NCBI GenBank assembly: GCA_944320795.1
Contig: CALUIU010000006.1
Coordinates: 1 to 64,000, forward strand
Length of the DNA: 64,000 bases
Direction: 5' to 3'
Source: Candidatus Paraprevotella stercoravium
GTDB taxonomy: Bacteria; Bacteroidota; Bacteroidia; Bacteroidales; Bacteroidaceae
Shown piece by piece: positions 3,122 through 31,105 of the stretch (its first letter is position 1; each line of letters opens with the position of its first letter). Below the pieces are notes generated by a model. It did no database searches and was not told where the DNA came from. It was given only the letters and a program-made list of their open reading frames with translations. Both the position numbers and the translations under genes were made by a program.

Positions 3122-3433
3122 TTATCCTATTGAAATTTTACGCACCAGTTTTCCCAATTTCAGGATATAACATCCTTTCGGCAAAGAGGTGCTGACTGTA
3201 TACTCAGAACTCTCCACCTTATATGATCCTACTTTCAAACCGGCCAGATTATAGATTTCCAGAACCAATCCCTCGGCATGCTGCACCGTAATCTGACTGC
3301 CACGCACCGTGATTGATGGTGTCAGCTCATCCATCTGCCCGAAGACAGGAAGATCAGGAAAAGCATAAAGAGGAGTTACAGCCGGTAAAAATAAAGCTAG
3401 CAACAATGTAAGTGTAACGTATTTCTTCTTCAT
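3122..3433 (-). CDS. Small secreted protein made mostly of a C-terminal sorting-type domain
   Basis: A 103-residue protein with a clear signal peptide (MKKKYVTLTLLLALFLPA). The rest is almost entirely one beta-rich module with LEIYNLAGLKVGSYKV, LPKGCYILKLG and a final VRKISIG, the pattern of the Por/type IX secretion C-terminal domain and related beta-sandwich tails in Bacteroidetes. Normally this module ends a much larger exported protein; here it stands nearly alone. It is the promoter-proximal gene of the minus-strand run with the L,D-transpeptidase. Function unknown. Confidence 0.7.
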   Translation of the reverse strand: MKKKYVTLTLLLALFLPAVTPLYAFPDLPVFGQMDELTPSITVRGSQITVQHAEGLVLEIYNLAGLKVGSYKVESSEYTVSTSLPKGCYILKLGKLVRKISIG

Positions 3434-3460
3434 AAATCCTAAAATCCTTACTCAATGTCA

Positions 3461-3492
3461 CAAATATAAAGTATTTTCTTCGAAAGAACAAG
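3461..3492 (-). promoter_or_regulatory. Promoter of the transpeptidase/sigma run
   Basis: On the minus strand CTTG (3489-3492) is followed after 20 bases by TATATTTG (3461-3468), a good match to the Bacteroidales consensus, 28 bases before the first ATG at 3433. Confidence 0.6.
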
Positions 3493-3506
3493 AATTCTAA
3501 AAAAAA

Positions 3507-4421
3507 TCAGAGATGTAAAGTCAGATTTTCACGCGCCAACAATGTATCCGGAAAAATTGACTGTGCCTCACAAAGCAATTCATCTTCATTCTCATAACGG
3601 GCAGAAAAGTGACCGATACACAAACGACGCACGCCAATCATACGTGCCATCTCAGCAGCCTGACGGGCAGTGCTGTGGCAGGTTTCACGTGCCCGACGCT
3701 TGTCCGATTCGGCAAAAGTGGCTTCGTGATAAAGCAAATCAACACCTTTCAGAAAAGGAACAATCTCAGGTTGATAAGCGGTATCAGAACAGTAGGCATA
3801 ACTGCGCGGCGGATTGGCGGGACGAACAAAGTATGCATTAGGTACGACCGTTCCATCTTCCAGCGTCCAGTCAGCGCCTTGCTTAATACGCCCAATCGCA
3901 TAATCAGGCACTTTATAGAAATCTATTTTTTCACGGATAATATGTGGCAATACCGGTTTTTCACGGAAGCAAAAACCCATGCAAGGCACACGGTGGCGCA
4001 ACGGAAAAGCATAAACCTCCACCGAACGGTCCTCGTAAATCAACGAATACTCCTCGACTGCAAGTTCGTGAATCTGCACCTCATAAGGCATTCCCTGACA
4101 GAAAAAATCCAACTGGGGGCGCAAAAGTGACTCCAGCGGTGCCGGCGCATAGATGTACAACGTTTCGGTACGTCCCAGAAGTCCGAACGTAGAAATCAAA
4201 CCAATCAAGCCAAAGCAATGGTCCCCATGCAGATGGGATATGAAAATATGGTTCAGACGGGAGAATTTCAAATGCGAGCGACGCAACTGCAACTGGGCAC
4301 CTTCCCCACAATCAATCATAAAAAGCTTGTCGCGCACATTCACCACCTGCGCCGAAGGATAATGACGCATGGTAGGTAATGCTGAACCGCATCCCAAAAT
4401 ATTCACTTCAAATTTTTCCAT
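3507..4421 (-). CDS. rnz: Ribonuclease Z
   Basis: A 304-residue metallo-beta-lactamase-fold tRNA 3'-processing endonuclease. The zinc motif HLHGDH is at residues 63-68, with further ligands in YCSDTAY, YHEATF and a C-terminal IGHFSARY. Length and motif order fit the short bacterial RNase Z (ElaC) form, which cuts pre-tRNAs after the discriminator base. It is transcribed in the same direction as rpsA but lies beyond the rpsA terminator, so it probably has its own weak promoter or depends on read-through. Confidence 0.95.
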   Translation of the reverse strand: MEKFEVNILGCGSALPTMRHYPSAQVVNVRDKLFMIDCGEGAQLQLRRSHLKFSRLNHIFISHLHGDHCFGLIGLISTFGLLGRTETLYIYAPAPLESLLRPQLDFFCQGMPYEVQIHELAVEEYSLIYEDRSVEVYAFPLRHRVPCMGFCFREKPVLPHIIREKIDFYKVPDYAIGRIKQGADWTLEDGTVVPNAYFVRPANPPRSYAYCSDTAYQPEIVPFLKGVDLLYHEATFAESDKRRARETCHSTARQAAEMARMIGVRRLCIGHFSARYENEDELLCEAQSIFPDTLLARENLTLHL

Positions 4422-4430
4422 AAAACAATA

Positions 4431-4467
4431 TAAATAAAAAAGAGCGGTGACCCGAGGACACCGCTCT
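4431..4467 (-). terminator. rpsA terminator
   Basis: A perfect 9-bp stem (4441-4449 with 4459-4467) around a 9-base loop is followed on the minus strand by a TTTTTATTTAT tract. It lies 24 bases after the rpsA stop and before the rnz start. Confidence 0.85.
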
Positions 4468-4490
4468 TCGCTGTTTATTCTTGAATAGAA

Positions 4491-6278
4491 TTATTCACCT
4501 TTTTCCATCTGAGCCTTCAAAGCTGCCAATGCATCGATATCACCCAGGGTAGTTGATGCAGCCTGGTTCTGAATCATCGGAGCATCTTCCTTCTTTGATG
4601 ACTTCTTAGGAGCAGCAGCCTTCTTAGCTTCCTTAGCCTCAGCGCGCTGTGCATCTTCGAAGATACGGCTGTGAGACAGGATGATGCGCTTGCTTTCCTT
4701 GTTGAACTCAATCACCTTGAATGGCAACTTCTCGTTCAACTGAGCCTGTGAACCATCTTCCTTAACGAGGTGCTTCGGAGTTGCGAAACCTTCTACACCG
4801 TACTCCAACTGGATAACTGCACCCTTGTCGAGCATCTCAACGATAGTTCCTTCGTGAACTGAATCCTGAGTGAATACAGTCTCGAATACATCCCATGGGT
4901 TCTCCTCCAGCTGCTTGTGACCCAAGCTCAGACGACGGTTTTCCTTGTCAATCTCCAGAACCTGAACCTCGATCTCAGCACCGATCTGAGTGAACTCTGA
5001 AGGATGCTTGATCTTCTTAGTCCAAGACAGGTCAGAGATGTGGATCAATCCGTCAACACCTTCCTCGATCTCAACGAATACACCGAAGTTAGTGAAGTTG
5101 CGAACCTTTGCAGTGTGCTTAGAACCTACAGGATACTTAGCCTCGATGTTCTCCCATGGATCAGCCTTCAGCTGCTTGATACCCAGAGACATCTTGCGCT
5201 CTTCGCGATCCAGAGTCAGGATAACTGCCTCTACTTCGTCACCAACCTTCATGAAGTCCTGAGCTGAACGCAGGTGCTGGCTCCAAGACATCTCAGAAAC
5301 GTGGATCAGACCTTCTACACCCGGAGCGATTTCGATGAATGCACCGTAGTCAGCCATAACGACAACTTTACCCTTAACCTTGTCACCTACCTTCAAGTTA
5401 GGATCCAAAGCATCCCATGGGTGCGGAGTGAGCTGCTTCAAGCCCAGAGCGATACGCTTCTTCTCATCATCGAAGTCGAGGATAACCACGTTGATCTTCT
5501 GATCCAACTGAACAACCTCGCGAGGATCGCTAACACGGCCCCATGACAAGTCTGTGATGTGGATCAAACCGTCTACGCCACCCAAGTCGATGAATACACC
5601 GTATGATGTGATATTCTTAACGGTACCTTCCAATACCTGTCCTTTTTCCAGCTTGCTGATGATTTCCTTCTTCTGCTGCTCCAACTCAGCCTCGATAAGA
5701 GCCTTGTGAGAAACAACAACATTCTTGAATTCCTGGTTGATCTTAACCACCTTGAATTCCATAGTCTTGCCAACGAATACATCGTAATCGCGGATAGGCT
5801 TAACATCGATCTGTGAACCTGGCAAGAATGCCTCGATTCCGAATACATCAACGATCATACCACCCTTAGTGCGGCACTTGATGTATCCCTTGATAATTTC
5901 TTCTTTCTCCAGAGCCTCGTTAACACGATCCCAAGAACGAGTAGCACGAGCCTTCTTGTGTGAAAGGATCAACTGACCCTTCTTGTCTTCCTGATTCTCG
6001 ATATACACCTCAACAACATCACCTACTTTCAAATCAGGATTGTAACGGAACTCACTCATAGGAATGATACCGTCTGACTTAAAGCCGATGTTCACAACAA
6101 CCTCACGCTTGTTCATTGCGATAACAGTACCGTCAACTACTTCGTGATCGTTTACCTTGTTCAAAGAACCTTCGTAAGCCTTCTGCTGTTCTTCACGACT
6201 TACATTTGTTGTGTCACCGCTTTCATAAGCTTCCCAGTCAAAATCTGCCAGAGGAGCTACATTTTTCAAATCTGCCAT
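4491..6278 (-). CDS. rpsA: 30S ribosomal protein S1
   Basis: A 595-residue protein with six S1 RNA-binding repeats starting near residues 48, 130, 213, 298, 385 and 473. Repeats 3-5 are the most typical (YGVFIDLGGVDGLIHITDLSW-type strands), and repeats 1 and 2 are the divergent ribosome-binding kind. S1 binds mRNA on the small subunit and helps initiation, which matters in Bacteroidetes because they rarely use Shine-Dalgarno pairing. A Lys/Ala-rich linker and acidic tail follow the last repeat. Single-gene unit with its own promoter and terminator. Confidence 0.97.
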   Translation of the reverse strand: MADLKNVAPLADFDWEAYESGDTTNVSREEQQKAYEGSLNKVNDHEVVDGTVIAMNKREVVVNIGFKSDGIIPMSEFRYNPDLKVGDVVEVYIENQEDKKGQLILSHKKARATRSWDRVNEALEKEEIIKGYIKCRTKGGMIVDVFGIEAFLPGSQIDVKPIRDYDVFVGKTMEFKVVKINQEFKNVVVSHKALIEAELEQQKKEIISKLEKGQVLEGTVKNITSYGVFIDLGGVDGLIHITDLSWGRVSDPREVVQLDQKINVVILDFDDEKKRIALGLKQLTPHPWDALDPNLKVGDKVKGKVVVMADYGAFIEIAPGVEGLIHVSEMSWSQHLRSAQDFMKVGDEVEAVILTLDREERKMSLGIKQLKADPWENIEAKYPVGSKHTAKVRNFTNFGVFVEIEEGVDGLIHISDLSWTKKIKHPSEFTQIGAEIEVQVLEIDKENRRLSLGHKQLEENPWDVFETVFTQDSVHEGTIVEMLDKGAVIQLEYGVEGFATPKHLVKEDGSQAQLNEKLPFKVIEFNKESKRIILSHSRIFEDAQRAEAKEAKKAAAPKKSSKKEDAPMIQNQAASTTLGDIDALAALKAQMEKGE

Positions 6279-6344
6279 TTAGTTAATTAATTGATAATAA
6301 AAATACTAATAATGTTAGACATTATATTGTTTAAAAATTCGCCG

Positions 6345-6352
6345 CAAAGATA
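6345..6352 (-). promoter_or_regulatory. rpsA promoter -7 box
   Basis: TATCTTTG on the minus strand, 67 bases before the rpsA ATG. No good TTTG is seen at the usual upstream spacing. The rest of the 6279-6605 divergent region is AT-rich with no further feature recognised. Confidence 0.55.
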
Positions 6353-6565
6353 ACTCAAATTCTCACTTATATAAAAACAAAAGACTTGTTATTTTTATAT
6401 ATTTAAGCATAAATAACATATTATTACATTATCTATAAAATCATATTTTCTTTCCGTCTTTGAAAGGAAAGCCGCATTTTAAAGATAATGAAATAAAGGA
6501 AAACGAATGTCACATATTTATAGATTTTTCGCTCTTCATATATTCGAATATTCTCAGTTTTGTCG

Positions 6566-6573
6566 TATCTTTG
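6566..6573 (+). promoter_or_regulatory. pfkA promoter -7 box
   Basis: TATCTTTG lies 33 bases before the ATG at 6606, with a weak TTCG 19 bases upstream. The box lies inside the longer open frame that begins at 6507, which argues against that upstream start. Confidence 0.6.
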
Positions 6574-6605
6574 TGCTACTCACAAACATTAATAGAATTC
6601 AGAGC

Positions 6606-7586
6606 ATGAAAAAAAAGATTGAATGTATCGGTGTCCTGACATCTGGAGGTGATGCTCCGGGAATGAATGCCGCCATACGTGCCGTAACCCGTAGCGCTAT
6701 AGCTGAAGGCTTCAAGGTAAAAGGTATTTACAGAGGATATGAAGGACTTCTGCGAAACGAGATTCAAGAATTTACCACCGAGAACGTAAGTAATATCATC
6801 CAGCGTGGAGGTACTATTCTGAAAACAGCCCGCTGCAAAGACTTCCAAACTGTAGAAGGCCGTAAAATTGCCTACGACAATATGGTAGCTCAAGGTATTG
6901 ACGCACTGGTGGTCATCGGAGGTAACGGTTCACTTACCGGTGCCAGAATCTTCGCAGAAGAATATGATGTACCTTGTATCGGATTGCCGGGAACCATTGA
7001 CAATGACTTGTATGGCACAGATTCAACGATCGGTTACGATACAACCCTGAACACAATCGTAGAATGCGTAGACAAAATCCGCGACACTGCTACCTCACAC
7101 GAACGTATCTTTTTCATTGAAGTGATGGGACGCGATGCCGGCTTCCTGGCACAGAACAGTGCTATCGCCAGTGGAGCCGAAGCTGCAATCATTCCGGAAG
7201 ACTCCACCAATGCCGACCAGTTGGAGCAGTTCATCGGACGCGGAATCCGTAAGAGTAAGAGTTCAAGTATCGTCATCGTATCCGAAAGCCCGAAATGCGG
7301 TGCCATGTACTATGCTGAGCGCGTAAAACAGGAATATCCGGAATATGACGTGCGTGTATCTATCTTGGGCCACCTGCAACGTGGAGGTTCTCCAAGTGCC
7401 AGCGACCGTATCCTGGCCTCACGCTTGGGCGTAGGTGCCATTACAGCCATTCTGGAAGGACAGCGCAACGTAATGATCGGTATCCGTGACGACGAAATCG
7501 TTTACGTTCCGTTTACCAATGCTATCAAAAATGACAAGCCGATCAAAAAAGAGCTGATCAACGTATTGGGTATCCTCTCTATCTGA
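6606..7586 (+). CDS. pfkA: 6-phosphofructokinase
   Basis: A 326-residue PFK that phosphorylates fructose 6-phosphate in glycolysis. Family motifs are in order: [14 protein letters not shown] (residues 12-25), the nucleotide loop GGNGS (105-109), the catalytic [14 protein letters not shown] (128-141), MGRDAGFLA and [13 protein letters not shown]. In E. coli PfkA the loop is GGDGS with an Asp that helps hold Mg-ATP; here it is Asn. The next residue is Gly as in ATP-dependent enzymes, not the Asp of pyrophosphate-dependent ones. Start chosen at MKKKIEC because it matches the family N-terminus and lies after the promoter. Confidence 0.96.
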
Positions 7587-7610
7587 TTCTATTCAGATAT
7601 ACAAATGATC

Positions 7611-7651
7611 AGAGAAGGGTTGTTTCGCAAATGACGAAACAACCCTTCTCT
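7611..7651 (+). terminator. pfkA hairpin
   Basis: A perfect 17-bp inverted repeat (7611-7627 with 7635-7651, 7-base loop) starts 25 bases after the pfkA stop. Neither side has a long T tract, so it may act as a terminator or as an mRNA 3' end stabiliser. Confidence 0.65.
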
Positions 7652-7752
7652 GATTATTCCAGAGCCACCGCACACTCCGATTTTCTAAAACAATAAAAGA
7701 GAAGGTGTCAAAATTCTTTTTTGAAAAATGAATTTGAAATTTGCCCCTAAAA

Positions 7753-7800
7753 GATAAAAGAAAAAGCCACATCATGACTCAATACAGAGTTTGATATGGC
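7753..7800 (-). terminator. Terminator of the 7908-8348 gene
   Basis: Minus-strand stem GCCATATCA/TGATGTGGC (7792-7800 with 7766-7774, one mismatch) followed by TTTTTCTTTTATC. The remaining bases between here and the pfkA hairpin hold nothing recognisable. Confidence 0.65.
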
Positions 7801-7907
7801 CCTTTTAAATATCACGGTTATAATCTGTAACTTTGAAAAAGAAGCAATCATTTAGTTCTGACACATCCTCTTTCAAGTCAAAATATCCCATACAACCTAA
7901 AAAAGAA

Positions 7908-8348
7908 TTATTCCTCAAGCAATTTTTTCAAAAAGTCATTCAATTCCTCATCAAGACCTTTTAAAAGGTCCTTGTCCAGAATAATCGTATCATCATCGAC
8001 CAGATAAAGATCACTCACCACATCTTGCTCCTCATCCATAAGCACAAAAGAGAATGGCTTCAATATAGGAAGTTTTTCCCACACATCATGCATACTTTGA
8101 ATGCACTTCCTCAACACAGGAACATTCGTTTCATAAAAATGCTCATCTTTTGAATCAATCCATTCCTCAACTACACAACGGGTCAATTCATCGAAATCAT
8201 CATTATATACAAGAAGTTCGCCAGACTCAGGCTTGATCTGCAAATGAATATCCGTAAGTACCGGATCTGACTGAATCATCGAAAATTTAGCAGCGACTTT
8301 ATTCAAAGCACGTTCTATCTGTTGAATCGTAGGGGATGTTACGCTCAT
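7908..8348 (-). CDS. Hypothetical acidic protein
   Basis: A 146-residue soluble protein with no signal peptide or membrane span. I chose MSVTSPTIQQIERAL (8348) because the 48 codons upstream encode an unconvincing hydrophobic and aromatic stretch over AT-rich intergenic DNA. The protein is acidic, with a final helix rich in Leu, Asp and Glu (LLKGLDEELNDFLKKLLEE). It lies downstream of secA on the same strand but beyond the secA terminator. Function not recognised. Confidence 0.75.
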   Translation of the reverse strand: MSVTSPTIQQIERALNKVAAKFSMIQSDPVLTDIHLQIKPESGELLVYNDDFDELTRCVVEEWIDSKDEHFYETNVPVLRKCIQSMHDVWEKLPILKPFSFVLMDEEQDVVSDLYLVDDDTIILDKDLLKGLDEELNDFLKKLLEE

Positions 8349-8504
8349 AAGCAAAAGTCTTTTATATTTATAGAAACCAAAATTACAAAAAATATTTGTA
8401 ATACTACCTTTTGAAGCAAAAAAAAACAAAATAAGCCTATGAAAATAAGAATACAAAAGACTATCTGACAGCCCTCCGAGCAAAAAAAACAAACGAAACT
8501 TTAT

Positions 8505-8537
8505 ACAAACAAAAACCCGGACTCATTTGAGTCCGGG
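8505..8537 (-). terminator. secA terminator
   Basis: Perfect 10-bp stem (8516-8525 with 8528-8537) and a minus-strand TTTTTGTTTGT tract, 30 bases after the secA stop. Confidence 0.85.
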
Positions 8538-8567
8538 CATACTTCATCTATAAGACAAAATTTACAA

Positions 8568-11500
8568 TTACAGACCTGCTCCGTGGCAGTTCTTGAACTT
8601 CTTACCGCTACCGCATGGACATGGATCATTACGATTTGGAGTCTTGTCAGCAACATAAGGCTGCTGTGCCTGAGCTTCGCGCGTATCCTGAGCTGCTGCG
8701 GCTGCCATATCAGGATCATTCAAATCCTCATGGCTTTCAACATAATTCTGTTTCTGGTGTGCCGGCTCCGGATCCACCTCACGTACCTCCTGTGGAGCCT
8801 GTACCGGAATCTGACCACGCATCAAAATGCTCAAGGTCTGGTTATTGATCTTGTCTACCATCTTGTCGAACAGAGTAACACTCTCCAACTTGAAGATCAA
8901 CAGAGGATCTTTCTGCTCATAGCTTGCATTCTGCACTGAGTGCTTCAACTCATCCAAAGATCTCAGATTCTCCTTCCAAGCCTCATCAATAGTATGCAAC
9001 ATAATTGTTTTCTCAAACTCCTTGATTACAGACTTGCTCTCGCTTTCATAAGCCTCCTTCAACGGAGTTGAAATCTGATACATACGACGTCCGTCAGTAA
9101 TCGGAACCAAAATATTCTCATACATGGCTCCCTGTGTCTCATACACCTGCTTGATTACCGGATTAGCCACAGCCGCCATCAGATCGGTCTTCATCTTGAA
9201 GCGCTTCATAGCCTCTTCATAGGCTTTATTATACAGTTTCTCGCGCTTCATTTCATTATATTCCTGTTCGGTAAACGGACATTCCATGGCCAGAACTTCA
9301 AGGAAGTTCTCCTTGCAGCTGTCATAATCACCACCATCAATGAAGTAAACACAGCGATCCCAAATCATATCAGCGATATCCATGCCAATACGCTCACCCA
9401 TTAAGGCATGACGACGCTTTTCGTACACAACCGTACGCTGTTTGTTCATTACATCATCATACTCCAGCAAACGCTTACGCACACCGAAGTGGTTCTCCTC
9501 TACCTTCTTTTGGGCACGCTCGATAGATTTACTGATCATCGGATGTTCAATCATCTCACCATCCTCAAAGCCAAGTCTATCCATGATACGTGCAATACGT
9601 TCGCTAGCAAACAGACGCATCAATTTATCTTCCAAAGATACAAAGAAGACAGAAGATCCCGGGTCACCCTGACGACCGGCACGTCCACGTAACTGACGGT
9701 CTACACGACGGCTCTCATGACGCTCCGTACCGATGATAGCCAGACCACCGGCCGCCTTCACTTCATCACTCAGTTTGATATCCGTACCACGACCGGCCAT
9801 ATTGGTAGCAATGGTCACCGTACTGCTTTGTCCGGCCTTAGCAACAATATCAGCCTCCTGCTGATGCAGTTTCGCATTCAACACATTGTGAGGGATCTTT
9901 CTCATCTGGAGCATCTTGCTCAACATTTCTGAGATTTCAACAGAAGTAGTACCCACAAGTACCGGACGACCGGCCTTAATCATCTTCTCTACTTCTTCGA
10001 TTACCGCCTTATACTTCTCGCGCTGAGTCTTGTAAACACGGTCATCCATGTCCTGACGGGCAATCGGACGGTTGGTCGGAATCTCAACGACATCCAGCTT
10101 ATAGATATCCCAGAACTCACCTGCCTCAGTGCTGGCCGTACCGGTCATACCGGAAAGCTTGTGATACATTCTGAAGTAGTTCTGCAAGGTAATTGTTGCG
10201 AATGTCTGTGTGGCAGCCTGAACCTTTACATGTTCTTTAGCCTCAACCGCCTGATGCAAACCATCGCTCCAACGACGACCGTCCATGATACGACCGGTCT
10301 GCTCATCGACAATCTTCACCTCACCGTCGATCACTACATATTCGTCATCGCGGTTAAACATGGTGTAAGCCTTAAGCAACTGCTGAATAGTATGAACACG
10401 CTCGCTCTTCACGGCATAGTCACTATAAAGCTGATCCTTCTTCTGCAAACGCTCTTCTGCTGACAGTGTTGTATCTGTTTCCAAAGCAGACATGGCTGCA
10501 GTAATATCAGGCAACACAAACAAATCAGGGTTAGAAGTAGCATGAGCCAACCATTCATTACCCTTGTCCGTCAGATCTACGCTGTTCATCTTCTCATCTA
10601 CCACGAAGTACAACGGCTCTACAGCCTCCGGCATACGCTTATTGTTGTTCTCCATGTAGATCTCCTCTGTCTTGAGCATACCGGCCTTGATTCCCGGTTC
10701 AGACAGATATTTGATCAACGGCTTATTCTTTGGAAGAGCCTTGTGGCTACGATACAACTGCAGGAATCCTTGAGCCACCTTCTCTTTATCTTCTGTAGCG
10801 ATAAGCTGTTTGGCTTCGGCCAGATATTGGGTAGCCAACTGACGCTGAACGGCAACAAGCTGCTCTACCAACGGCTGATAAACACCAAACAACTGATTGT
10901 CTCCCTGAGGCACCGGTCCGGAAATAATCAATGGAGTACGGGCATCATCGATCAAAACTGAGTCCACCTCATCCACAATCGCATAGTTATGACGACGCTG
11001 TACCAGATCTTTCGGATTAGTGGCCATATTGTCGCGCAAGTAGTCAAAACCGAACTCATTGTTAGTACCGAAAGTAATATCAGCCATGTAAGCCTTACGA
11101 CGTGCATCTGAGTTTGGCTGATGACGGTCAATACAATCTACGCTCAATCCGTGGAACATATAGATCGGTCCCATCCAGTCAGAGTCACGCTTGGCCAGAT
11201 AGTCGTTCACGGTTACCACGTGCACACCGTTTCCTGTCAACGCATTCAGGAACACCGGCAAAGTAGCCACCAATGTCTTACCTTCACCGGTTGCCATCTC
11301 GGCAATCTTACCCTGATGCAATACGATACCACCGAAGAGCTGCACATCATAGTGCACCATATTCCAGCGGATGTCGTTACCACCGGCTGTCCAGTGAGCG
11401 TGATATACGGCCTTATCTCCGTCAATATCCACGAAATCGTATTTCACAGCGAGCATGCGGTCGAAATCGTTTGCAGTAACGATTACATCCTCATTTTGGG

Positions 11501-11864
11501 CAAAACGCTCGGCGGTAGACTTCACGATAGCGAACACCTGAGGCATTACTTCGTTCAGGGCTACCTCATAACGTTCCAAAACTTCTTTCTCCAGTTTGTC
11601 AACCTGAGCAAACAGAGGAGCACGGTCCTGAATCTCAGTCTGCTCAATTTTCGCCTTCAGTTCGGCAATTTTATCTTTCAGGTCATTGGCTGATCCTTGT
11701 ATGTAATTTTTCAACTCCTGCGTTTTAGCACGGAGGGCATCATTATCCAAGGCCTGAATTTCCGGATAAGCAGCCTTCACCTTCTCTACCAAAGGCTGAA
11801 TCAGCTTCATATCCCGTGTTGATTTATTACCAAACAGCTTGCTTAAAAATTTATTTATATCCAT
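8568..11864 (-). CDS. secA: Preprotein translocase ATPase SecA
   Basis: A 1098-residue motor of the Sec translocase that drives unfolded preproteins through SecYEG. The Walker A motif ATGEGKT is at 191-197, with [13 protein letters not shown] as the Walker B/DEAD region, GMTGTA, the [10 protein letters not shown] helicase motif and the [12 protein letters not shown] arginine finger. The C-terminus has an acidic linker and a complete zinc-binding SEC-C tail ([14 protein letters not shown]). The protein is longer than the E. coli one because of insertions typical of Bacteroidetes SecA, including about 100 residues after the [10 protein letters not shown] region. Confidence 0.98.
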
Positions 11865-11897
11865 AGTTATTTTGTTGTATTATCTGTCAAACGACTG

Positions 11898-11905
11898 CAA
11901 AGTTA
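11898..11905 (-). promoter_or_regulatory. secA promoter -7 box
   Basis: TAACTTTG on the minus strand, 33 bases before the secA ATG. It gives secA its own start although it follows the alkaline-phosphatase-like gene by 91 bases. Confidence 0.5.
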
Positions 11906-11955
11906 TTATAAATTTCATAAAAACACACATTCTCTTAACGGTAAATAGCGTTTTT

Positions 11956-13542
11956 CTACTTTAAATCCGTCAGAGGATAAGCCGAGCAAGCGTTTGGCGC
12001 ACGGATACGCATAAATTGTGACAACGTAGGAGCCACACAATCAACCGATACCGGCGACTTGATTATTTGCGATTTAATATCATAACCCAGGAAAAAAAGC
12101 GGGAAGCTGACAAAGCCTTCACGAATCCACAAAGGCTCATTTGAATTCTCTGTCTCCAGTTTCCATCCGGAAGACACATCTATCATAATATCTCCCGAGC
12201 ATTTCGGATGATAGCTGTTACGGATTTTACTGATAATCGGGCTCCAGGAACCCACATTCAGACGATGACTGGTATATACATCCTGCACACCTTCCAACTG
12301 AATGATAAAATCCTGACACCGTTGCAATACTTCCGCCGAATTCAGCTGTTTGTTTTCCAACAACTTTTTATTCAGATAGATCTGCGCGTTATAGGAAGCC
12401 TCGACATACTGCCCTTCGCCATACATGGCCATCAGATACATATTCAGCAAAGCGACTGCTTTTTTCATACTGAACACACCGGTCGGAATCCGATAACGGG
12501 CCAGTTCCGGCCGTTCCGGATCGGCATAGCCTGTTGACGTGATGACAAAAAGCACCTGTCCTGCTCCGACACGTTTTTCGACATAATCGATCAAGTCTCC
12601 CAACTGACGGTCCAGACGCACATACGTATCCTGCAGTTCTATCGGATAATCTGATGAAGTTTTATGTTCAAAATTTCCGGCATAATACGTCACTGACAAA
12701 AAGTCAGTAACATCATCCTTGCCCAGTGCGGTACTCTCCATACACACTTTGGCAAACTTATTTATTTCTTCATTGACACAGCCCGTCGTCTTGAACTGAG
12801 AGATACGCTGGTCGCCCTTAAAACGGTGCTCAAAAGAATTAGCCACAGCACTGCCCAGCAAATAATTGAAGTTACCCACCAGATCATTGGATGGCGTCCA
12901 TTTGAAGTTATCTACAGCCTCCCACAGCGAATGAGTACGGTCATAGGCACTGGCCCAAGCCGGATAGCCGCCGTAATAAGAGGAAGTAACCCACTGCCCC
13001 GTTTCATCATTTATCCAGAAAGCTCCGTCTGCCGCATGACCGGCCGCCAGAATGGCTGCATCCCGAAAAGGAGAAATAGCATACACCTGTGCTGCCCCGC
13101 CAGAAGCCATTTTCAGTTCATCCACCAAAGTGGAAGTACGCAAATGCTTCGGTGACGAAGCCGTTCCCTTAGGCAAAGCCGGATATTTTTCATCATCTAC
13201 ACAAAATACAGGACGAAGAATCTTGCGATCCATCCACATATTGGCCACAATGCCATTTTCATAAGGAGAAGCGCCAGTAAACAGACAGGCTACCGCCGAT
13301 GCCCGATCGGGACTGACAAACGGATATTCCGCATTCAGGCACACATAACCGTCTTTCATCAGACGCTTGAATCCCCGCTCGCCATACAGCGACTTGAAAG
13401 CCTGCATATAATCCGAGCGTAACTGGTCAATCGTAATGCCTACCACCAAACGCGGAGCATCTGAAGCCGCATAGGCCGATGCATTGGACAAAATCCATGC
13501 TCCCAGCAAAGCGGTAAGTAAACGATAGTTTTTTAAATGCAT
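11956..13542 (-). CDS. Alkaline-phosphatase-superfamily protein, predicted inactive
   Basis: A 528-residue exported protein (signal peptide ending near ASAYA) of the PafA/type I phosphodiesterase fold. The scaffold is clear: VGITIDQLRSDY, the ELQDTYVRLDRQL helix, RIPTGVF and VDCVAPTLSQF all match the family. The metal sites do not. The nucleophile Thr is Ser77 in FVSPDR; the usual DYVGH ligand pair reads YYAGN (286-290); the usual ADHG reads STGY (336-339); and the His of HVPVIF reads FPLFF near the C-terminus. Only Asp39 remains. It probably binds a partner or ligand rather than hydrolysing phosphate. It starts 8 bases after lnb, so the two are almost certainly co-transcribed. Confidence 0.85.
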   Translation of the reverse strand: MHLKNYRLLTALLGAWILSNASAYAASDAPRLVVGITIDQLRSDYMQAFKSLYGERGFKRLMKDGYVCLNAEYPFVSPDRASAVACLFTGASPYENGIVANMWMDRKILRPVFCVDDEKYPALPKGTASSPKHLRTSTLVDELKMASGGAAQVYAISPFRDAAILAAGHAADGAFWINDETGQWVTSSYYGGYPAWASAYDRTHSLWEAVDNFKWTPSNDLVGNFNYLLGSAVANSFEHRFKGDQRISQFKTTGCVNEEINKFAKVCMESTALGKDDVTDFLSVTYYAGNFEHKTSSDYPIELQDTYVRLDRQLGDLIDYVEKRVGAGQVLFVITSTGYADPERPELARYRIPTGVFSMKKAVALLNMYLMAMYGEGQYVEASYNAQIYLNKKLLENKQLNSAEVLQRCQDFIIQLEGVQDVYTSHRLNVGSWSPIISKIRNSYHPKCSGDIMIDVSSGWKLETENSNEPLWIREGFVSFPLFFLGYDIKSQIIKSPVSVDCVAPTLSQFMRIRAPNACSAYPLTDLK

Positions 13543-21479: not shown

Positions 21480-23036
21480 ATGATGATCCGAAAATATCCG
21501 GTAGGCATACAGAATTTTGAAGACCTCCGCAAAGAGGGCTACTGTTATGTGGACAAGACTGAGCTGATGTATCAGTTGGTGCAGAGTGGAAAATATTACT
21601 TCCTGAGCCGTCCAAGACGCTTCGGAAAAAGTCTGCTGCTATCTACGATACAGGCTTATTTTGAAGGAAAAAAAGAACTGTTTCGCGGACTTGCAATCGA
21701 GCAGTTGGAACAGGAATGGAATATTTATCCGATATTGCATCTGGATTTGAACGCACAAAAGTATGACACGCCGGAGAGTCTGTACAGCATGCTCAACGAT
21801 GCTTTGTGCAACTGGGAAAGTCAATATGAAACACGCTCTAGCGAAGCAACCCATTCCCTGCGCTTTCAGGGAGTGATTCAGCGTGCCGCCGAAAAATACG
21901 GCCAGCAAGTCGTTGTCCTGATCGACGAATACGACAAACCCATGCTTCAGGCTATCGGCAATGAAGCGCTGCGAACAGAATACCGCAACACCCTGAAGGC
22001 CTTTTATGGGGTATTGAAGAGTTGTGACAAGTATCTGCGCTTTGCCATGCTGACCGGTGTCACCAAATTCAGCAAGGTCAGCGTATTCAGCGATCTGAAC
22101 AATCTGATGGATATTTCCTTATCCTCACGTTTCGCTTCCATCTGCGGAATCACGGAACAGGAACTACACCAGTACTTTAAAGAGGACATCAGATTACTGG
22201 GTGAAAGCCAAGGAATGTCTCCGGAAGACACTGCACAGGAACTGAAACAATGGTATGACGGCTATCACTTTTCGGATAGAAGCGAAGACATTTATAATCC
22301 CTTCAGTCTGCTCAATACTTTTGCACAAAGGCAATTCGGCAGCTATTGGTTCGAAACAGGTACACCTACATTCTTGGTGGAACTGCTGAAACACTGTCAT
22401 TATGACCTGAACCGTCTGACGCAGGAAATGGCCATGGCGGATTCTCTCAACGGAATGGACTCCATGGAAGAGAACCCCGTGCCGATTCTTTACCAGAGCG
22501 GGTATCTCACCATCAAAGACTTTGATCGGGAGTTCCGGTACTATACTTTAGGCTTTCCGAATAAAGAGGTGGAAGAAGGATTTACCAAATTCCTGCTTCC
22601 GCATTATGCGCATCTGTCTTCCGGGAACTCAGCATTCGAACTGAGTCGTTTTGTACAGGAAGTGCGTGGCGGTCAGACTGACGCCTTTATGAAAAGGCTG
22701 CAAAGTTTCTTCGCCGACTGTCCGTATGAGCTGGCACGTGATCTGGAACGCCATTATCAGAACGTGCTTTTCATTGTCTTCAAACTTTTGGGATTCTACA
22801 CACAGGCGGAATATCACACTTCAGAAGGTCGTATTGACCTTGTCGTGCAGACCACGGACTATATTTATTTGATGGAGTTCAAGCTGGAAGGCACTGCCGA
22901 AGAGGCCTTGCGCCAGATCAACGAAAAGCATTATGCCCTACCCTTTGCGTCCGATCCCCGGAAACTTTTTAAAATCGGCGTGAACTTCAGCAATGCTATC
23001 CGAGGCATCGAAAAATGGTTAATCGAGGAAAAATAA
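21480..23036 (+). CDS. AAA_9 ATPase with C-terminal PD-(D/E)XK domain (copy A)
   Basis: A 518-residue protein of the AAA-ATPase-like/PDDEXK_9 family. Walker A reads SRPRRFGKSL (43-52), Walker B VVLIDEYDKP (145-154), and a sensor-like MLTGVTKFSKVSVF follows near 195. A PD-(D/E)XK nuclease-like core is at about 450-485 (RIDLVVQ, then LMEFKLEGTAEEALRQI). The family is greatly expanded in gut Bacteroidetes and its biological role is not established. Start at 21480 or the adjoining ATG at 21483. Closely related to copy B at 25586; both have promoters of the same layout. Confidence 0.93.
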   Translation: MMIRKYPVGIQNFEDLRKEGYCYVDKTELMYQLVQSGKYYFLSRPRRFGKSLLLSTIQAYFEGKKELFRGLAIEQLEQEWNIYPILHLDLNAQKYDTPESLYSMLNDALCNWESQYETRSSEATHSLRFQGVIQRAAEKYGQQVVVLIDEYDKPMLQAIGNEALRTEYRNTLKAFYGVLKSCDKYLRFAMLTGVTKFSKVSVFSDLNNLMDISLSSRFASICGITEQELHQYFKEDIRLLGESQGMSPEDTAQELKQWYDGYHFSDRSEDIYNPFSLLNTFAQRQFGSYWFETGTPTFLVELLKHCHYDLNRLTQEMAMADSLNGMDSMEENPVPILYQSGYLTIKDFDREFRYYTLGFPNKEVEEGFTKFLLPHYAHLSSGNSAFELSRFVQEVRGGQTDAFMKRLQSFFADCPYELARDLERHYQNVLFIVFKLLGFYTQAEYHTSEGRIDLVVQTTDYIYLMEFKLEGTAEEALRQINEKHYALPFASDPRKLFKIGVNFSNAIRGIEKWLIEEK

Positions 23037-25585: not shown

Positions 25586-27163
25586 ATGAAATATCCGATA
25601 GGAATACAGAGTTTTGACCAGATCATCGAAGACGGGTATGTGTATATTGACAAAACCGATCTGGTGTACCGACTGGCAACGGAAGGGAAAATATATTTCC
25701 TCAGCCGGCCGCGCCGTTTCGGGAAAAGCCTGCTGGTCTCTACCCTGAAAAACTATTTTCTGGGACGGAAGGAACTTTTCAAGGGACTGAAAATAGACGC
25801 CCTGGAAAAGGACTGGAAGGTTTATCCCGTATTCCATATTGATTTCAATGGTTCCAACTTCACCAAACAAGGTATTCTGGAGAACCGCATCGGAAGCTAT
25901 ATATCCGATTGGGAAAAACTATACTCACTGGAATCCAAAGAGATTGCAACAGATCTGGGCAACCGTTTTATCCGGGTGCTTCGCGCCGCTCATGAGCAGA
26001 GTGGCCGCCGTGCCGTGGTGCTTGTCGATGAATACGACAAACCGGTGCTCGATGTGCTGGATGTGGACAAGAATCTGGAGGAGGAGCACCGCAACATTCT
26101 GAAAAGCTTCTATTCGGTGTTCAAAGGGGCTGACGAGCATCTGCAGTTCGTATTCCTTACCGGAGTGACCAAATTCTCACAGGTCAGCGTATTCAGCGGA
26201 TTCAACCAACCGTTGGATATCAGCATGCACAGCAAGTATGAAACGCTTTGCGGTATCTCTCAGGAGGAACTGAATGCGGTTTTTCGGGAACCGATTGAAG
26301 AAATGGCAGCAGTTTACAGATGTTCCTATGAAGAAATGATGGCTCTGCTTAAGGCACAATACGACGGGTATCATTTCAGCGATCTCATGACGGATATCTA
26401 TAACCCGTTCAGTCTGCTGAACGCATTCGAGTCCCAGCGCATCAGCGACTTTTGGTTCAAAAGCGGAACCCCGACTTATCTCATCCGCCTTCTTTCGCAT
26501 ACGGACGAGAATATGAGCGAGATTACCGGAAAGTACTACACAGCTGAAGAATTCATCGACTATAAGGCCAATATCGAGCAGCCCCTGCCGATGATTTATC
26601 AGAGTGGTTATCTCACCATAAAGGATTTTGATTTTCGTCGAAACGCCTTCCTGCTTGATTATCCCAATAATGAAGTGAAAAAAGGATTTCTGGCTCTGAT
26701 TGCAGGCAGTTATTTCAATACACGCGAGAGTATTTACTCTTGGATACAGAATGCAGCCTTTCAGTTACAGGACGGAAAACTCGACGAATTCCGCAGCGGA
26801 CTGACATCTTTTCTGGCTAGTATCCCTTACACCATGCGACGCAAGGAGAACGAACGCGAAAAGGAACGTTATTTCCATTACACGTTCTATCTCATCATGC
26901 GCCTGATCAGTGTCTATACGGTGTACACGGAAAAAATGCAGAGCTATGGACGGGTGGACTGTATCGTAGAGACAAACGATTATGTCTATATCTTCGAATT
27001 CAAACTGGACGGCACAGCCGACGAGGCCATGCACCAGATTGAAGCAAAAGGCTATGCCCGCGAATACGAAGCGGACAAGCGAAAGGTTTATCTCATCGGC
27101 GCCGTGTTCTCTTCAGAAACCGGAACGATTGAAGATTGGAAATCTGCTCCCGAAACAATTTAA
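25586..27163 (+). CDS. AAA_9 ATPase with C-terminal PD-(D/E)XK domain (copy B)
   Basis: A 525-residue paralogue of copy A. Walker A RPRRFGKSLL (41-50), Walker B VVLVDEYDKPV, FLTGVTKFSQVSVF, and a C-terminal nuclease-like core with RVDCIVET and IFEFKLDGTADEAMHQI. The two copies share domain order and motif spacing but have diverged throughout, so the duplication is not recent. Its 3' end points into the truncated avd-like gene at 27233, and it occupies the side where the rest of a DGR would be expected. Confidence 0.93.
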   Translation: MKYPIGIQSFDQIIEDGYVYIDKTDLVYRLATEGKIYFLSRPRRFGKSLLVSTLKNYFLGRKELFKGLKIDALEKDWKVYPVFHIDFNGSNFTKQGILENRIGSYISDWEKLYSLESKEIATDLGNRFIRVLRAAHEQSGRRAVVLVDEYDKPVLDVLDVDKNLEEEHRNILKSFYSVFKGADEHLQFVFLTGVTKFSQVSVFSGFNQPLDISMHSKYETLCGISQEELNAVFREPIEEMAAVYRCSYEEMMALLKAQYDGYHFSDLMTDIYNPFSLLNAFESQRISDFWFKSGTPTYLIRLLSHTDENMSEITGKYYTAEEFIDYKANIEQPLPMIYQSGYLTIKDFDFRRNAFLLDYPNNEVKKGFLALIAGSYFNTRESIYSWIQNAAFQLQDGKLDEFRSGLTSFLASIPYTMRRKENEREKERYFHYTFYLIMRLISVYTVYTEKMQSYGRVDCIVETNDYVYIFEFKLDGTADEAMHQIEAKGYAREYEADKRKVYLIGAVFSSETGTIEDWKSAPETI

Positions 27164-27232: not shown

Positions 27233-27352
27233 TTAAATTTTTTCTCCCAACATGAAACGAAAGTCACGCTGCATGTATTTCATCAGGCCGACAATTTGAA
27301 GCATCAATTGATAGGAAGCTCCATATACCGGAAAATTGACATAAATAGCCAT
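27233..27352 (-). pseudogene. Truncated avd-like four-helix-bundle gene
   Basis: A 39-codon frame beginning MAIYVNFPVYGASYQLM and ending MLGEKI then TAA. The sequence matches the opening of the four-helix-bundle (Avd-type) proteins that accompany reverse transcriptases in Bacteroidales DGRs; family members run to about 110-130 residues and usually continue straight after a (T/M)LGEKI motif. The start lies 6 bases after the stop of the preceding gene, as expected for an operon. The remaining helices are missing and the sequence after 27233 bears no resemblance to them, so this is a stump. Recognition is by eye from a short sequence. Confidence 0.6.
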
Positions 27353-27358
27353 ACCATA

Positions 27359-27844
27359 TCAAGATTCCTTTGTTACCCATATTTCTTTTATCTGCTTACG
27401 CAATTCTGCCAGAAACACCACACAAGCCATCGGTGTGCTTTCTTCCAACGGATAATCCAGCACCTTTTGACATAAAGCGCGAAGCGAATCCTGTTTTTCC
27501 GTGCTATTGCTCAGACTGGTTATCGGAATGGAAGCCAACCAACTGGCGTAATCTTCGGAAAGTTTCTGTTCGTCATCATTCAAATAGACCAGTACAGTAT
27601 CACCCTTCATCTCATACCTTCTTCCTGACACAAACTTTTCCAAACTACTTTTCGGGAAACCGATATAAACCACTTCGCAACCCGCCTTCCGAACAAAACG
27701 CCGAAAGGCCTTGAACGGGTGGAGCAAGCCACAGGCCAACCAAGCACTTTCCTGATAAGCCTTATAAAAGCTGCCTTCACCAAGGAACAGAATCGTCCCA
27801 TCAGGACGAAACTGCTCAGTTTGTAATTTCTCTTTTATCGTCAT
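27359..27844 (-). CDS. DGR-associated hypothetical protein
   Basis: A 161-residue cytoplasmic protein. The ATG at 27844 (MTIKEKLQTEQFRPDGTILF) is preferred to a TTG two codons upstream. It opens with a TEQFRPDGTILFLGEGSFYKAY motif region and contains GCEVVYIGFPKSSLEKF. Proteins of this pattern are, to my recollection, found between Fib_succ_major target genes and avd/reverse transcriptase genes in Bacteroides DGR loci; the placement here, between such a gene and an avd-like stump, agrees. Biochemical role unknown. Confidence 0.7.
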   Translation of the reverse strand: MTIKEKLQTEQFRPDGTILFLGEGSFYKAYQESAWLACGLLHPFKAFRRFVRKAGCEVVYIGFPKSSLEKFVSGRRYEMKGDTVLVYLNDDEQKLSEDYASWLASIPITSLSNSTEKQDSLRALCQKVLDYPLEESTPMACVVFLAELRKQIKEIWVTKES

Positions 27845-27870
27845 AAGCAAAAAAAATAAAAATTTTCGAC

Positions 27871-27881
27871 CTGCTTCGCAG
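27871..27881 (-). repeat. GCGAAGC mini-hairpin downstream of the target gene
   Basis: Minus-strand CTGCGAAGCAG, 63 bases after the target-gene stop. The GCGAAGC core is known to form an unusually stable DNA mini-hairpin. Some DGRs need a hairpin just after the variable region; this one is short, so the link is tentative. Confidence 0.35.
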
Positions 27882-28343
27882 TTTTTAGATCAATAAGCGA
27901 GACAAGCCCACATTAAAAAAATCGAACTCGGAACACAAATACCTTTAATCTGTGACAGGACGAACGGCATGACCACGAAAACGATAATCTTGGCTTTTAA
28001 TAGCACCATTACTATCAAAATATAAGTGATAAGCATCGGAATCATAACTCTCGATAAGTGTGCTCGTCCAATAATCACCACCTCCTCCCAAGCCATAATG
28101 GTTTGCACTAAGACGATAACCGACAGCAGGAAGAAAAATACAATTACCATTAGGACCCGTTACTTTTTGACCTTTTATACCATTATAAAGAGTCCATGTC
28201 CAAACACAATTATCTATGAGTTCCTGCATTTCCTCCATTGTGGGCATTCGCCAACTACCTCCCCATAGAGTACGGGCTACATCATATTCGGTTCTACCAA
28301 TATTATCGCCTATAAAAATCCAGCCTTCGTTTTCCTTATAATA

Positions 28344-28349
28344 TAAATA
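28344..28349. repeat. Left target-site duplication
   Basis: TAAATA, identical to 29375-29380 on the other side of the element. Confidence 0.85.
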
Positions 28350-28367
28350 ACGTGAGTTCGACGAATT
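28350..28367 (+). repeat. IS982 left inverted repeat
   Basis: ACGTGAGTTCGACGAATT, 18 of 18 identical to the inverted right end at 29357-29374. Confidence 0.9.
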
Positions 28368-28452
28368 ATAAGTTCCTGTAAATTTGGTGATTAGCGAAAA
28401 TTGTTGTAACTTTATAGTGCTGAATTACAAAGATTTACAAACAATAATCGCT

Positions 28453-29357
28453 ATGATCACCGAGAGCAAAGTTATAGAATTATTTTGTATGGCAGATGAT
28501 TTCTGCAAATTTTTTGATGCTATGATGGCAAAATATACGCTTAAACCTACCGTAAAGCGCAAATATCACCGTGCATCCACTATGTCCAAAGCTGAAATCA
28601 TGCTTGTCATGATACTTTTCCATGATTCGGGCTATCGTTGTCTGAAGCATTTCTATCAGGAAAAGATCTGCAAGCATATGCGCCATCTCTTCCCCAAGGT
28701 CGTCTCCTATAACCGTTTTGTTGAATTGGAAAAAGAAGTAGCCATCCCATTGGCCCTGTTTATCAAGAAGGTGCTTTTGGGTAAGTGCACAGGAATCAGC
28801 TTCGTAGACAGTACCCCCTTACGGGTATGCAAGAACCAGAGAATTCATATTCATAAAACGTTCAAGGGAATAGCTCAAAGAGGAAAATGTTCCATGGGCT
28901 GGTTCTTCGGATTCAAGCTGCATCTGATATGCAACGAACGTGGAGAACTTCTGAATTTCATGATTACCCCCGGAGACGTGGATGACCGTAAACCTCTTGA
29001 ATACAAAGCCTTTGTGGAATTCATTCATGGAAAGCTTGTCGGAGATAAGGGATATATCGGAAAAAATTGTTTCAGAGATTGTTTGTCGATGGCATACAAC
29101 TAATAACCAAGTTGAAAAGCAACATGAAAGGAACATTGATGTCTCTTTCTGACAAACTGCTTCTCAGGAAACGAGCCATTATCGAAACTGTCAATGACGA
29201 ACTTAAAAATATAGCACAGGTCGAACATTCCAGACATAGGACTTTTGATAATTTTATTGTCAACCTTTTGAGCGCAATTGCAGCATATTGCTGCTTTCCT
29301 AAGAAACCATGTATTAATGTTTTAAGAACGATTGATACATTACCTGCTTTGTTCTGA
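28453..29357 (+). pseudogene. IS982 transposase, split by a -1 frameshift
   Basis: The first frame starts at MITESKVIELF (28453) and runs through MSKAEIMLVMILFHDSGYR, FVDSTPLRVCKNQRIH and KGIAQRGKCSMGWFFGFK to GYIGKN, then terminates at 29103. The second frame, from about 29067, continues the family sequence ([19 protein letters not shown]) through the [14 protein letters not shown]-type C-terminus to 29357. The two join by stepping back one base at a run of six A (29061-29066). Either a base has been lost, or the A_AAA_AAT heptamer (29061-29067) allows programmed slippage. IS982 transposases are normally one frame. Confidence 0.88.
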
Positions 29358-29374
29358 ATTCGTCGAACTCACGT
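29357..29374 (-). repeat. IS982 right inverted repeat
   Basis: Reverse complement is ACGTGAGTTCGACGAATT, identical to the left end. Confidence 0.9.
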
Positions 29375-29380
29375 TAAATA
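29375..29380. repeat. Right target-site duplication
   Basis: TAAATA, matching 28344-28349. Confidence 0.85.
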
Positions 29381-29867
29381 GGAATCACTATCATAATCAT
29401 CCTTCTCCACTATTTCTCCCCAAGCATAATAATCACCATACTCTTCAGGCTTCGTAGCCCCAATATTACAACTGGCCCATTTGATGCCACTTGGCAAACC
29501 CAGATCTACTGCTCCTGAGGGGAAATCTCCAGCCTCTCCAGAGAACTGTTCTTCGGAACTATCTGTACTGCATGAGTTAAACAAAACAGCACAACACAAA
29601 AAAGATAAAAAATAAACGAATTTCATAAGCTACTCATTCTAAAATTAATCATATTTCATTATTTATTTTTCAGATCAAACTCATATCAAAAGTTTTATGA
29701 TAAAAACATATATCATATATTTTTACATAATCTATCACAGATATAAAGAATTTTACTTACATAAAAGGAAATTACAAAGAAAAATGCAAAAAATCAAGAA
29801 CGCATCCAAACACAATCATATCGCAATATCCTTTAAACAAATTCAACAGCCAGTTATTTTCTTTTCC

Positions 29868-29933
29868 AAATTTCGTCCCGTCGGTACTCAAATATTGTTT
29901 CGATGAAATTTGAGTACCGACGGGACGAAATTT
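29868..29933. repeat. Perfect 26-bp inverted repeat
   Basis: Arms 29868-29893 and 29908-29933 pair without mismatch around a 14-base loop. The plus side continues ATTTTTG. It lies in a 435-base gene-free stretch between the interrupted lipoprotein gene and the ilvC terminator. The remainder of that stretch (29627-29867) is very AT-rich and shows no credible gene. Confidence 0.9.
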
Positions 29934-30061: not shown

Positions 30062-31105
30062 TTAGTTGTTCTCCGGACGCAATTTGCGAACAGTCTCGGC
30101 AGTACGCCACATCTCGCTGTCGTGCAAAGCCTGCAACTCCTTCTCCAACTTCACGCGATAGTCCGGCTGTGAGTTAGAGTCGATAGAAATCTGTGCCTCG
30201 TTACCGCTCTTCACGGATTCATACAGCTTCTGCATCACTGGCTTGATGGCATCGTGGAACGGACCCATCCAGTCCAAAGCACCGCGCTGTGCGGTAGTAG
30301 AACAGTTAGCATACATCCAGTCCATACCCTTCTGTGCAAACAAAGGCATCAAAGACTGAGTCAGCTCTTCTACGGTTTCGTTGAAAGCCTCAGATGGTGT
30401 GTGGCCATTCTCACGCAACACTTCGTACTGAGCCAGCAACAAGCCCTGGATAGCACCCATCAATGAACCACGCTCACCGGTCAGGTCAGAGTAAACCTCA
30501 CGCTTGAAAGTTGTTTCAAACAGATAACCGGAACCGATACCGATACCGAAGGCCAAAGTACGGTCCATTGCTCTACCGGTAGCGTCCTGATATACTGCGT
30601 AAGAGCTGTTCAAGCCACGACCTTCCAGGAACATGGTACGCAAAGAAGTACCTGAACCCTTAGGAGCAACCATAATCACGTCGATATCTGCCGGTGGGAT
30701 AATATTTGTTCTTTCTTTGTAAGTGATTCCAAAACCGTGTGAGAAGTACAGAGCCTTGCCCGGAGTCAGGTACTGCTTGATCTGTGGCCATACGGCAATC
30801 TGAGCGGCATCTGACAGCAACATGCAGACGATAGTACCCTTCTGAGCAGCCTCTTCGATAGAGAACAGTGTTTCGCCCGGAACCCATCCGTCAGCCACTG
30901 CCTTATCGTAAGTCTTGCCCGGACGCTGTCCGACGATGACGTTGAAACCGTTGTCGCGCAGGTTACAAGCCTGACCCGGTCCCTGAACACCATAACCCAA
31001 GACAGCAATAGTCTCGTCTTTCAAAATCTCACGTGCTTTTTCCAATGGAAATTCTTCGCGGGTCATCACGGTTTCGATAACACCGCCAAAATTCAATTCT
31101 GCCAT
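30062..31105 (-). CDS. ilvC: Ketol-acid reductoisomerase
   Basis: A 347-residue enzyme that isomerises and reduces acetolactate or acetohydroxybutyrate with NAD(P)H in valine and isoleucine synthesis. The Rossmann loop VLGYGVQGPGQACNLRD is near residue 35. The catalytic half contains DLTGERGSLMG and AFNETVEELT, with Mg-binding Asp and Glu residues. Last gene of the branched-chain cluster; a 107-base gap before it contains two possible -7 boxes, so it may also be made separately. Confidence 0.97.
   Translation of the reverse strand: MAELNFGGVIETVMTREEFPLEKAREILKDETIAVLGYGVQGPGQACNLRDNGFNVIVGQRPGKTYDKAVADGWVPGETLFSIEEAAQKGTIVCMLLSDAAQIAVWPQIKQYLTPGKALYFSHGFGITYKERTNIIPPADIDVIMVAPKGSGTSLRTMFLEGRGLNSSYAVYQDATGRAMDRTLAFGIGIGSGYLFETTFKREVYSDLTGERGSLMGAIQGLLLAQYEVLRENGHTPSEAFNETVEELTQSLMPLFAQKGMDWMYANCSTTAQRGALDWMGPFHDAIKPVMQKLYESVKSGNEAQISIDSNSQPDYRVKLEKELQALHDSEMWRTAETVRKLRPENN

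Follow-up and report, generated by a model that had tools for sequence, protein, structure and literature searches.

The locus at 27233-29626 is very probably the dead remnant of a chromosomal Bacteroidales diversity-generating retroelement (DGR) of the type target, MSL, avd, template repeat (TR) and reverse transcriptase (RT). Its gene order, the homology of a truncated avd gene, the residue pattern of the variable region (VR) in the target and a hairpin motif downstream of the VR all support this reading, which had been put forward in an original prediction made from this DNA.

Layout of the locus and the interrupted target

The window (the whole stretch of 64 kb that we analysed, C6:1-64000) comes from a 2.84-Mb genome, whose assembly consists of 61 contigs and is 97.3% complete. 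Read on the minus strand from the gene at 30062-31105, which we take from its protein to be ilvC, the locus contains the start of a lipoprotein gene, an IS982-type element, the remainder of the lipoprotein gene, MSL and a stub of avd. The ORFs confirm the coordinates and distances given earlier: MSL (27359-27844) and the avd stub (27233-27352) are 6 bases apart, and 69 bases separate the stub from the stop, at 27163, of an ATPase gene on the plus strand. This gene (25586-27163) occupies the place expected for TR and RT; its earlier label AAA_9 was wrong, as Pfam gives AAA-ATPase_like (PF09820) and PDDEXK_9 (PF08011). We note that two AAA-ATPase_like genes (21480-23036 and 25586-27163) flank a protease gene in the window, that other stretches of the genome are 72-78% identical to the gene at 25586-27163, and that a long palindrome upstream of the lipoprotein gene (29868-29933) recurs at C2:106883-106954, on both strands, with 83-84% identity.

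Both pieces of the lipoprotein gene (minus strand) are ORFs that align with an open 482-aa ortholog in the nearest relative (G004). The N-terminal half (29369-29626) shows a lipobox-like FNSC (by eye) followed by the start of a Lcl_C/Fib_succ-type domain, and the C-terminal half (27945-28343) matches Lcl_C with an E-value of 1.1e-4, below the curated cut-off of Pfam. Between them lies the insertion (28350-29374, plus strand; ends placed from the positions of the terminal inverted repeats ACGTGAGTTCGACGAATT), flanked by 6-bp direct repeats TAAATA at 28344-28349 and 29375-29380. Its transposase, spread over two overlapping frames, is PF13612, which we equate with the IS982 family, in line with the claimed IS982 insertion in the target; a second copy, 87% identical, is found at C1 in the same genome. 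The ortholog carries a Mfa_like_1 fimbrillin-like domain, and judging from this likeness, together with PMC4159848 and PMC12632263, the target gene probably encodes an adhesin of the cell surface or a protein of the pilus tip.

The MSL accessory gene and related loci

The MSL (MutS-like) gene is open and encodes 161 aa from its ATG (27359-27844, minus strand; assigned from the ORF, Pfam and the family alignment). It matches MutS_I (PF01624) at an E-value of 0.0033, under the curated cut-off of Pfam; among 11 aligned members of the MSL family, four match PF01624 at E-value ≤ 0.1 (best 2.2e-5). The window protein is 24-53% identical to 10 MSL proteins from intact and broken DGRs, the 53% partner being a truncated MSL. 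PMC10053308 lists MSL among the accessory proteins of DGRs and places it in PF01624, which supports the suggestion that the 161-aa gene is a DGR-type accessory gene. MSL directly adjoins avd in intact DGRs also (gap of 0 bases in L092 and 1 in L095). The MSL protein alone found no match in the contigs of named close relatives, and no MSL relative was found in viral contigs, therefore a phage origin could not be shown.

Using the MSL protein as a single query, we found the gene in 4/61 genomes, and a profile built from three members found it in 20/301 genomes sampled from the family, its own genome included. Together this gives 22 MSL-bearing genomes (the window genome and G034 are common to both searches); at least one region was examined for each of the other 21, and for G068 four of its six MSL places were covered. 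A full-length DGR-type RT lies beside the locus in 10/22 genomes (G034, G048, G064, G112, G120, G135, G183, G204, G222 and G323), and no full-length RT was found in 11/22, a count that is biased as it is anchored on MSL, misses remnants that lack MSL (e.g. the one in the nearest relative) and comes from many fragmented assemblies. These 11 include nine with no RT at the locus (G000, i.e. the window genome, G054, G074, G092, G109, G110, G168, G234 and G265), one with only the C-terminal half of the RT, fused behind a cut MSL (G210), and one with an RT in pieces with stops (G247). Some of them are incomplete (G074 79%, G210 80%, G168 86% and G110 87%), and two, G234 with 3 contigs and G247 with a single one, are near-complete. 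Elsewhere in G109 and G074 there are weak RT matches (E-values 1e-5 to 4e-9, the level of the group II maturase of the window genome); the G109 contig stops 2 kb past MSL, and another gene fills that space. The remaining genome, G068 (1/22), was left unclassed (56% complete, without RT match); two of its loci (L099, L107) have large lipoproteins with several MSL-like genes close by, some in tandem, an arrangement that might represent a large number of targets served by a single unseen RT.

The target is open in 8/11 RT-less genomes (G054, G092, G109, G168, G210, G234, G247 and G265), with those of G168 and G265 sitting at a contig edge; in the remaining three, it is split (window) or the contig ends before it (G074, G110). 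A scan of named genomes gave nine loci, five of them taken to be ones already counted (G204, G210, G168, G092 and G110). Three of the four new ones have an RT (L112, L113, L117) and one does not (L118), all four being judged at the locus only. Over both sets, an RT lies beside 13/26 loci, no full-length RT was found for 12/26 and one is unclassed. Target, MSL-type gene, template and RT occur together in 13 related loci, 12 of them in the order of the window. The other is L106 (G183, 5414-8016), an intact DGR in which a weak match to the MSL profile (E-value 2.2e-6) lies between avd and TR, and the order therefore differs from that of the other twelve.

Accessory gene and target without a nearby RT, a finding that the original prediction had named as speaking against it, thus do occur (12/26), yet 13/26 loci have the RT beside them. 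Because of these 13, and because several others keep a truncated MSL, RT or TR, we regard the RT-less loci as further relics. In L096 (G210, 7232-8087), MSL breaks off at about residue 92 and its frame continues as the C-terminal half of a DGR RT, next to an open target, which we interpret as an internal deletion relic. Behind the 3' part of MSL, L104 (G074, about 6597-6782, minus strand) contains a template-like repeat rich in Asn codons, and no RT was found in this locus; we interpret the repeat as a template left without its enzyme. L100 (G234, 6992-12367) has three tandem lipoproteins with VR-type ends ahead of a shortened MSL, and no DGR RT was found in this near-complete genome. In L118 (Bacteroides faecalis KCTC 15687, 3176-6045), a VR-type target, the hairpin motif and a frameshifted MSL stand with an intact avd; the 4.6 kb that follow avd contain no RT, and of a template-like repeat only a piece of 61 bases is present.

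Variable region, avd stub and hairpins

The DGR-type variable region (FLPAVGYRLSANHYG...HAVRPV; 27954-28136, minus strand) was identified by its residue pattern against related templates. Over the 13 RT-bearing loci, 273/285 mismatches between VR and TR fall at template adenines, taking one repeat pair per locus (the target end and the stretch before the RT) and leaving other repeats aside. The first 10 loci give 26/27, 22/22, 24/27, 20/23, 27/27, 25/29, 20/20, 22/22, 12/12 and 16/16 (214/225), and the further three give 25/25, 13/14 and 21/21 (59/60). Because the TR matching the window was not found, the adenine test for the window was run on templates of other species only. We compared the window VR with four templates (L014, L092, L094 and L095) picked because they could be aligned without gaps. 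In columns where the templates have Asn, Asn is kept in 0/18 in the window VR, as compared to 20/29 for the other consensus columns (Fisher p 1.4e-6), and 17/18 codons are NNY (ending in T or C), the corresponding rate in the C-terminal half outside the VR being 34/65 (binomial p 1.5e-4). The four true VRs keep Asn in 2/14, 0/15, 3/14 and 3/17, and the ortholog in the nearest relative keeps 2/17 Asn and 19/29 others against the same four templates. With six templates, the window VR keeps 0/19 Asn and 22/33 others; the number of Asn kept ranges from 0 to 6 in seven other RT-less targets, among them that of the nearest relative, and from 0 to 5 in the six true VRs. Between the window and its nearest relative, 44/69 target residues are identical ahead of the VR and 19/58 inside it. 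The Asn loss, the retention of other columns and the NNY codons agree with the proposal that the lipoprotein C-terminus is a DGR variable region; judged from its sequence, the window target displays the residue pattern expected of DGR rewriting, as real variable regions do.

What is left of avd is a 5' third, cut after codon 39 (LGEKI, then TAA; 27233-27352, minus strand) and assigned by homology to Avd N-termini. The stub matches the Avd N-terminus at E-value ≤ 0.05 in 5/7 avd-bearing intact loci, namely with 54% identity over 37 aa (E-value 1.5e-10), 44% (6e-8), 42% (5e-7), 31% (3e-4) and 29% (0.047), the E-values being computed on small sets of loci; it does not match in the avd-bearing intact loci L093 and L097. 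Two further loci of the named-genome set match with 51% and 49% identity, and L113 and L117 do not. Against PHROG 3206 ('Avd protein of DGR'), the match is weak (E-value 0.12) and covers the whole stub. When two intact Avd proteins were scanned, 23S_rRNA_IVP scored above its cut-off and bAvd below. None of the three frames past codon 39 in the window is Avd-like (by eye). The 39-codon frame had been called avd-like, and with Avd relatives in these intact loci it appears to be the N-terminus of an Avd.

In 6/10 intact loci (6/7 with avd, 0/3 without), the VR is followed after 69-102 nt by a short hairpin whose loop is 3 nt long and which has TCGA or TCGC behind it. It was not found near the VR of L112, L113 and L117, which have an RT and each an avd match; the total is therefore 6/13 intact loci, with 7/13 lacking it near the VR. 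The window contains a counterpart of this post-VR hairpin of avd-bearing DGRs, CTGC-GAA-GCAG then GTCGA (27866-27881, minus strand), one of three occurrences of the motif on both strands of the 64 kb. Its 4-bp stem is weak, and the region folds no better than shuffled sequences (z 0.74). The same motif is present in the relics L096 and L118. By eye, 27897-27911 (minus strand) appears to be the eroded counterpart of a terminator-like hairpin that follows the VR in several intact DGRs and is found in the nearest relative too.

The same place in the nearest relative

As had been proposed with the original prediction, the same locus was compared in a relative. The nearest one, G004, shares 93.5% DNA identity with the window over 5.6 kb of flank, and in the same place it has the target alone: the lipoprotein gene is open, its end is of the VR type, and none of MSL, avd and RT stands beside it. 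The lipoprotein is followed by the terminator-like hairpin, a degraded 3' end of an ATPase gene and the same protease gene as in the window; the small hairpin motif is absent. Queries with MSL, avd and RT gave nothing credible in this locus (best E-value 0.58), and no MSL was found across the G004 genome. An open VR-type target without machinery implies that, in one sister species at least, the target persisted after the DGR machinery was lost. The ATPase relic resembles the gene at 21480-23036 and not the neighbour of avd, so we do not claim a shared insertion. Elsewhere in G004 (L058:7597-8616; C1:223.7-224.5 kb), a DGR-like RT with the motif LPIGNYTSQ lies in a prophage-like stretch beside another gene; we rejected it as the partner of the lipoprotein, as its neighbour is different and the G004 genome contains the lipoprotein VR only once.

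The MSL profile found no match in 17 congeners, and because of this it is only by inference that we take the cassette to have once been complete here. The same 0/17, along with a nearest relative whose locus holds the target alone, would fit a history in which a partial cassette (target end, MSL and avd start) arrived by recombination and a complete DGR never stood here. We consider this unlikely: the same lipoprotein with its VR-type end sits in the same place in G004, as if it were an ancestral DGR target, and the decayed ATPase 3' end that separates target and protease gene there indicates that this locus has lost sequence too.

Search for a template and an RT in the genome

The original prediction left two options, either that the DGR is dead or that an RT elsewhere in the genome diversified the target. 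We searched the whole assembled genome with the VR. At the DNA level (E-value up to 10), the VR matched only other stretches no longer than about 30 bases, and at the protein level there is no second copy and no second target; VR/TR pairs in related loci are readily found by blastn (word size 7) at E-values of 2e-39 or better. An RVT_1 search hit one place, with two ORFs separated by stops. This place also has a GIIM domain, and its motif is QGGPLSP as compared to IGNLTSQ in the DGR RT of L014; we therefore rejected it as a DGR RT and consider it a broken group II intron maturase. A DGR RT used as query found nothing at E-value 1e-10, and another found only the maturase site. TR and RT, claimed to be absent from the locus, were found neither there nor elsewhere in the assembled genome, which thus shows neither the DGR-type RT nor the template repeat of a functional DGR.

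Because neither a second VR copy nor a DGR-type RT was found, the first option is supported and the second is not. That the target is still diversified, or was until the insertion entered, by an RT and template elsewhere has in its favour that remote targets and multi-target DGRs are known (PMC8144416 and PMC3521204) and that the window MSL is still open; it is very improbable given these searches and a target split by an IS.

The ATPase junction

The junction between avd and the ATPase gene is unique within the genome. A misassembly that fused the ATPase gene to a live DGR could be imagined, given the ATPase paralogs in the genome and DGR repeats able to confuse assemblers, but none of the paralogous stretches (72-78% identical) spans the junction, the separate assembly of G004 has the same target beside an ATPase relic 3' end and the same protease gene, and the rest of the assembly yielded no DGR RT, which makes an artefact hardly credible. 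Ordinary small genes that merely resemble DGR parts are an equally implausible source, since order, spacing, hairpin motif and VR pattern are all as in intact DGRs and the same order lies beside DGR RTs in 12 loci, even if the single-profile matches are weak.

Proposed history and its meaning

In the DGR that we believe once stood here, the RT, partnered by Avd and perhaps by MSL, would by the known mechanism have made cDNA from the template RNA and misread its adenines. This cDNA would have taken the place of the stretch at the end of the lipoprotein gene that lies upstream of the small hairpin, and so have produced variants of a surface protein. A deletion, possibly tied to the arrival of the neighbouring ATPase gene, would then have removed the rest of avd, TR and RT and frozen the last variant. 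Before or after this loss, the IS982-family element would have split and inactivated the target.

Loss of the DGR machinery with the last target variant kept may be a common fate in these gut Bacteroidales, a proposal we make tentatively from the 11 RT-less as compared to 10 live MSL-bearing genomes among 22, and from the open targets in eight of the 11. Surveys anchored on the RT would miss such remnants; a count could be based on the VR residue pattern together with an MSL stub and the hairpin behind the VR. In itself no more than a fossil, the window is useful as a key to a class of DGR targets without RT. Should such fossils prove common, one could measure how fast bacteria gain, use and discard targeted hypermutation, and ask whether selection still acts on the frozen variants; the frequency of RT-less remnants is the part worth following.

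Comparison with known systems

Bacteroidales DGRs such as L092, L093, L094, L095, L097 and L112 share the gene order, MSL-avd adjacency and VR type of the window, which differs from them in lacking two thirds of avd, the TR and the RT and in having an IS in its target. The cassette resembles the DGR of Bordetella phage BPP-1 in its Avd protein and in a hairpin motif behind the VR; according to PMC3240598, BPP-1 needs a hairpin/cruciform after the VR for target recognition, and by analogy the motif in the window may play the same role. The phage hairpins described there have GC-rich stems of 7-10 bp (8 bp in BPP-1) and 4-nt GRNA loops and lie 4-34 bp from the VR, whereas those found here have a 4- to 5-bp stem and a 3-nt loop, followed by TCGA/TCGC, and lie about 65 to 100 bases downstream. 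Decayed DGRs, with an RT inactivated by a nonsense mutation, an IS or a frameshift, are described in PMC3521204, so the kind is already known. In those examples, the damaged RT still has an intact VR and TR next to it, whereas in the window TR and RT are gone and the target side is what is left.
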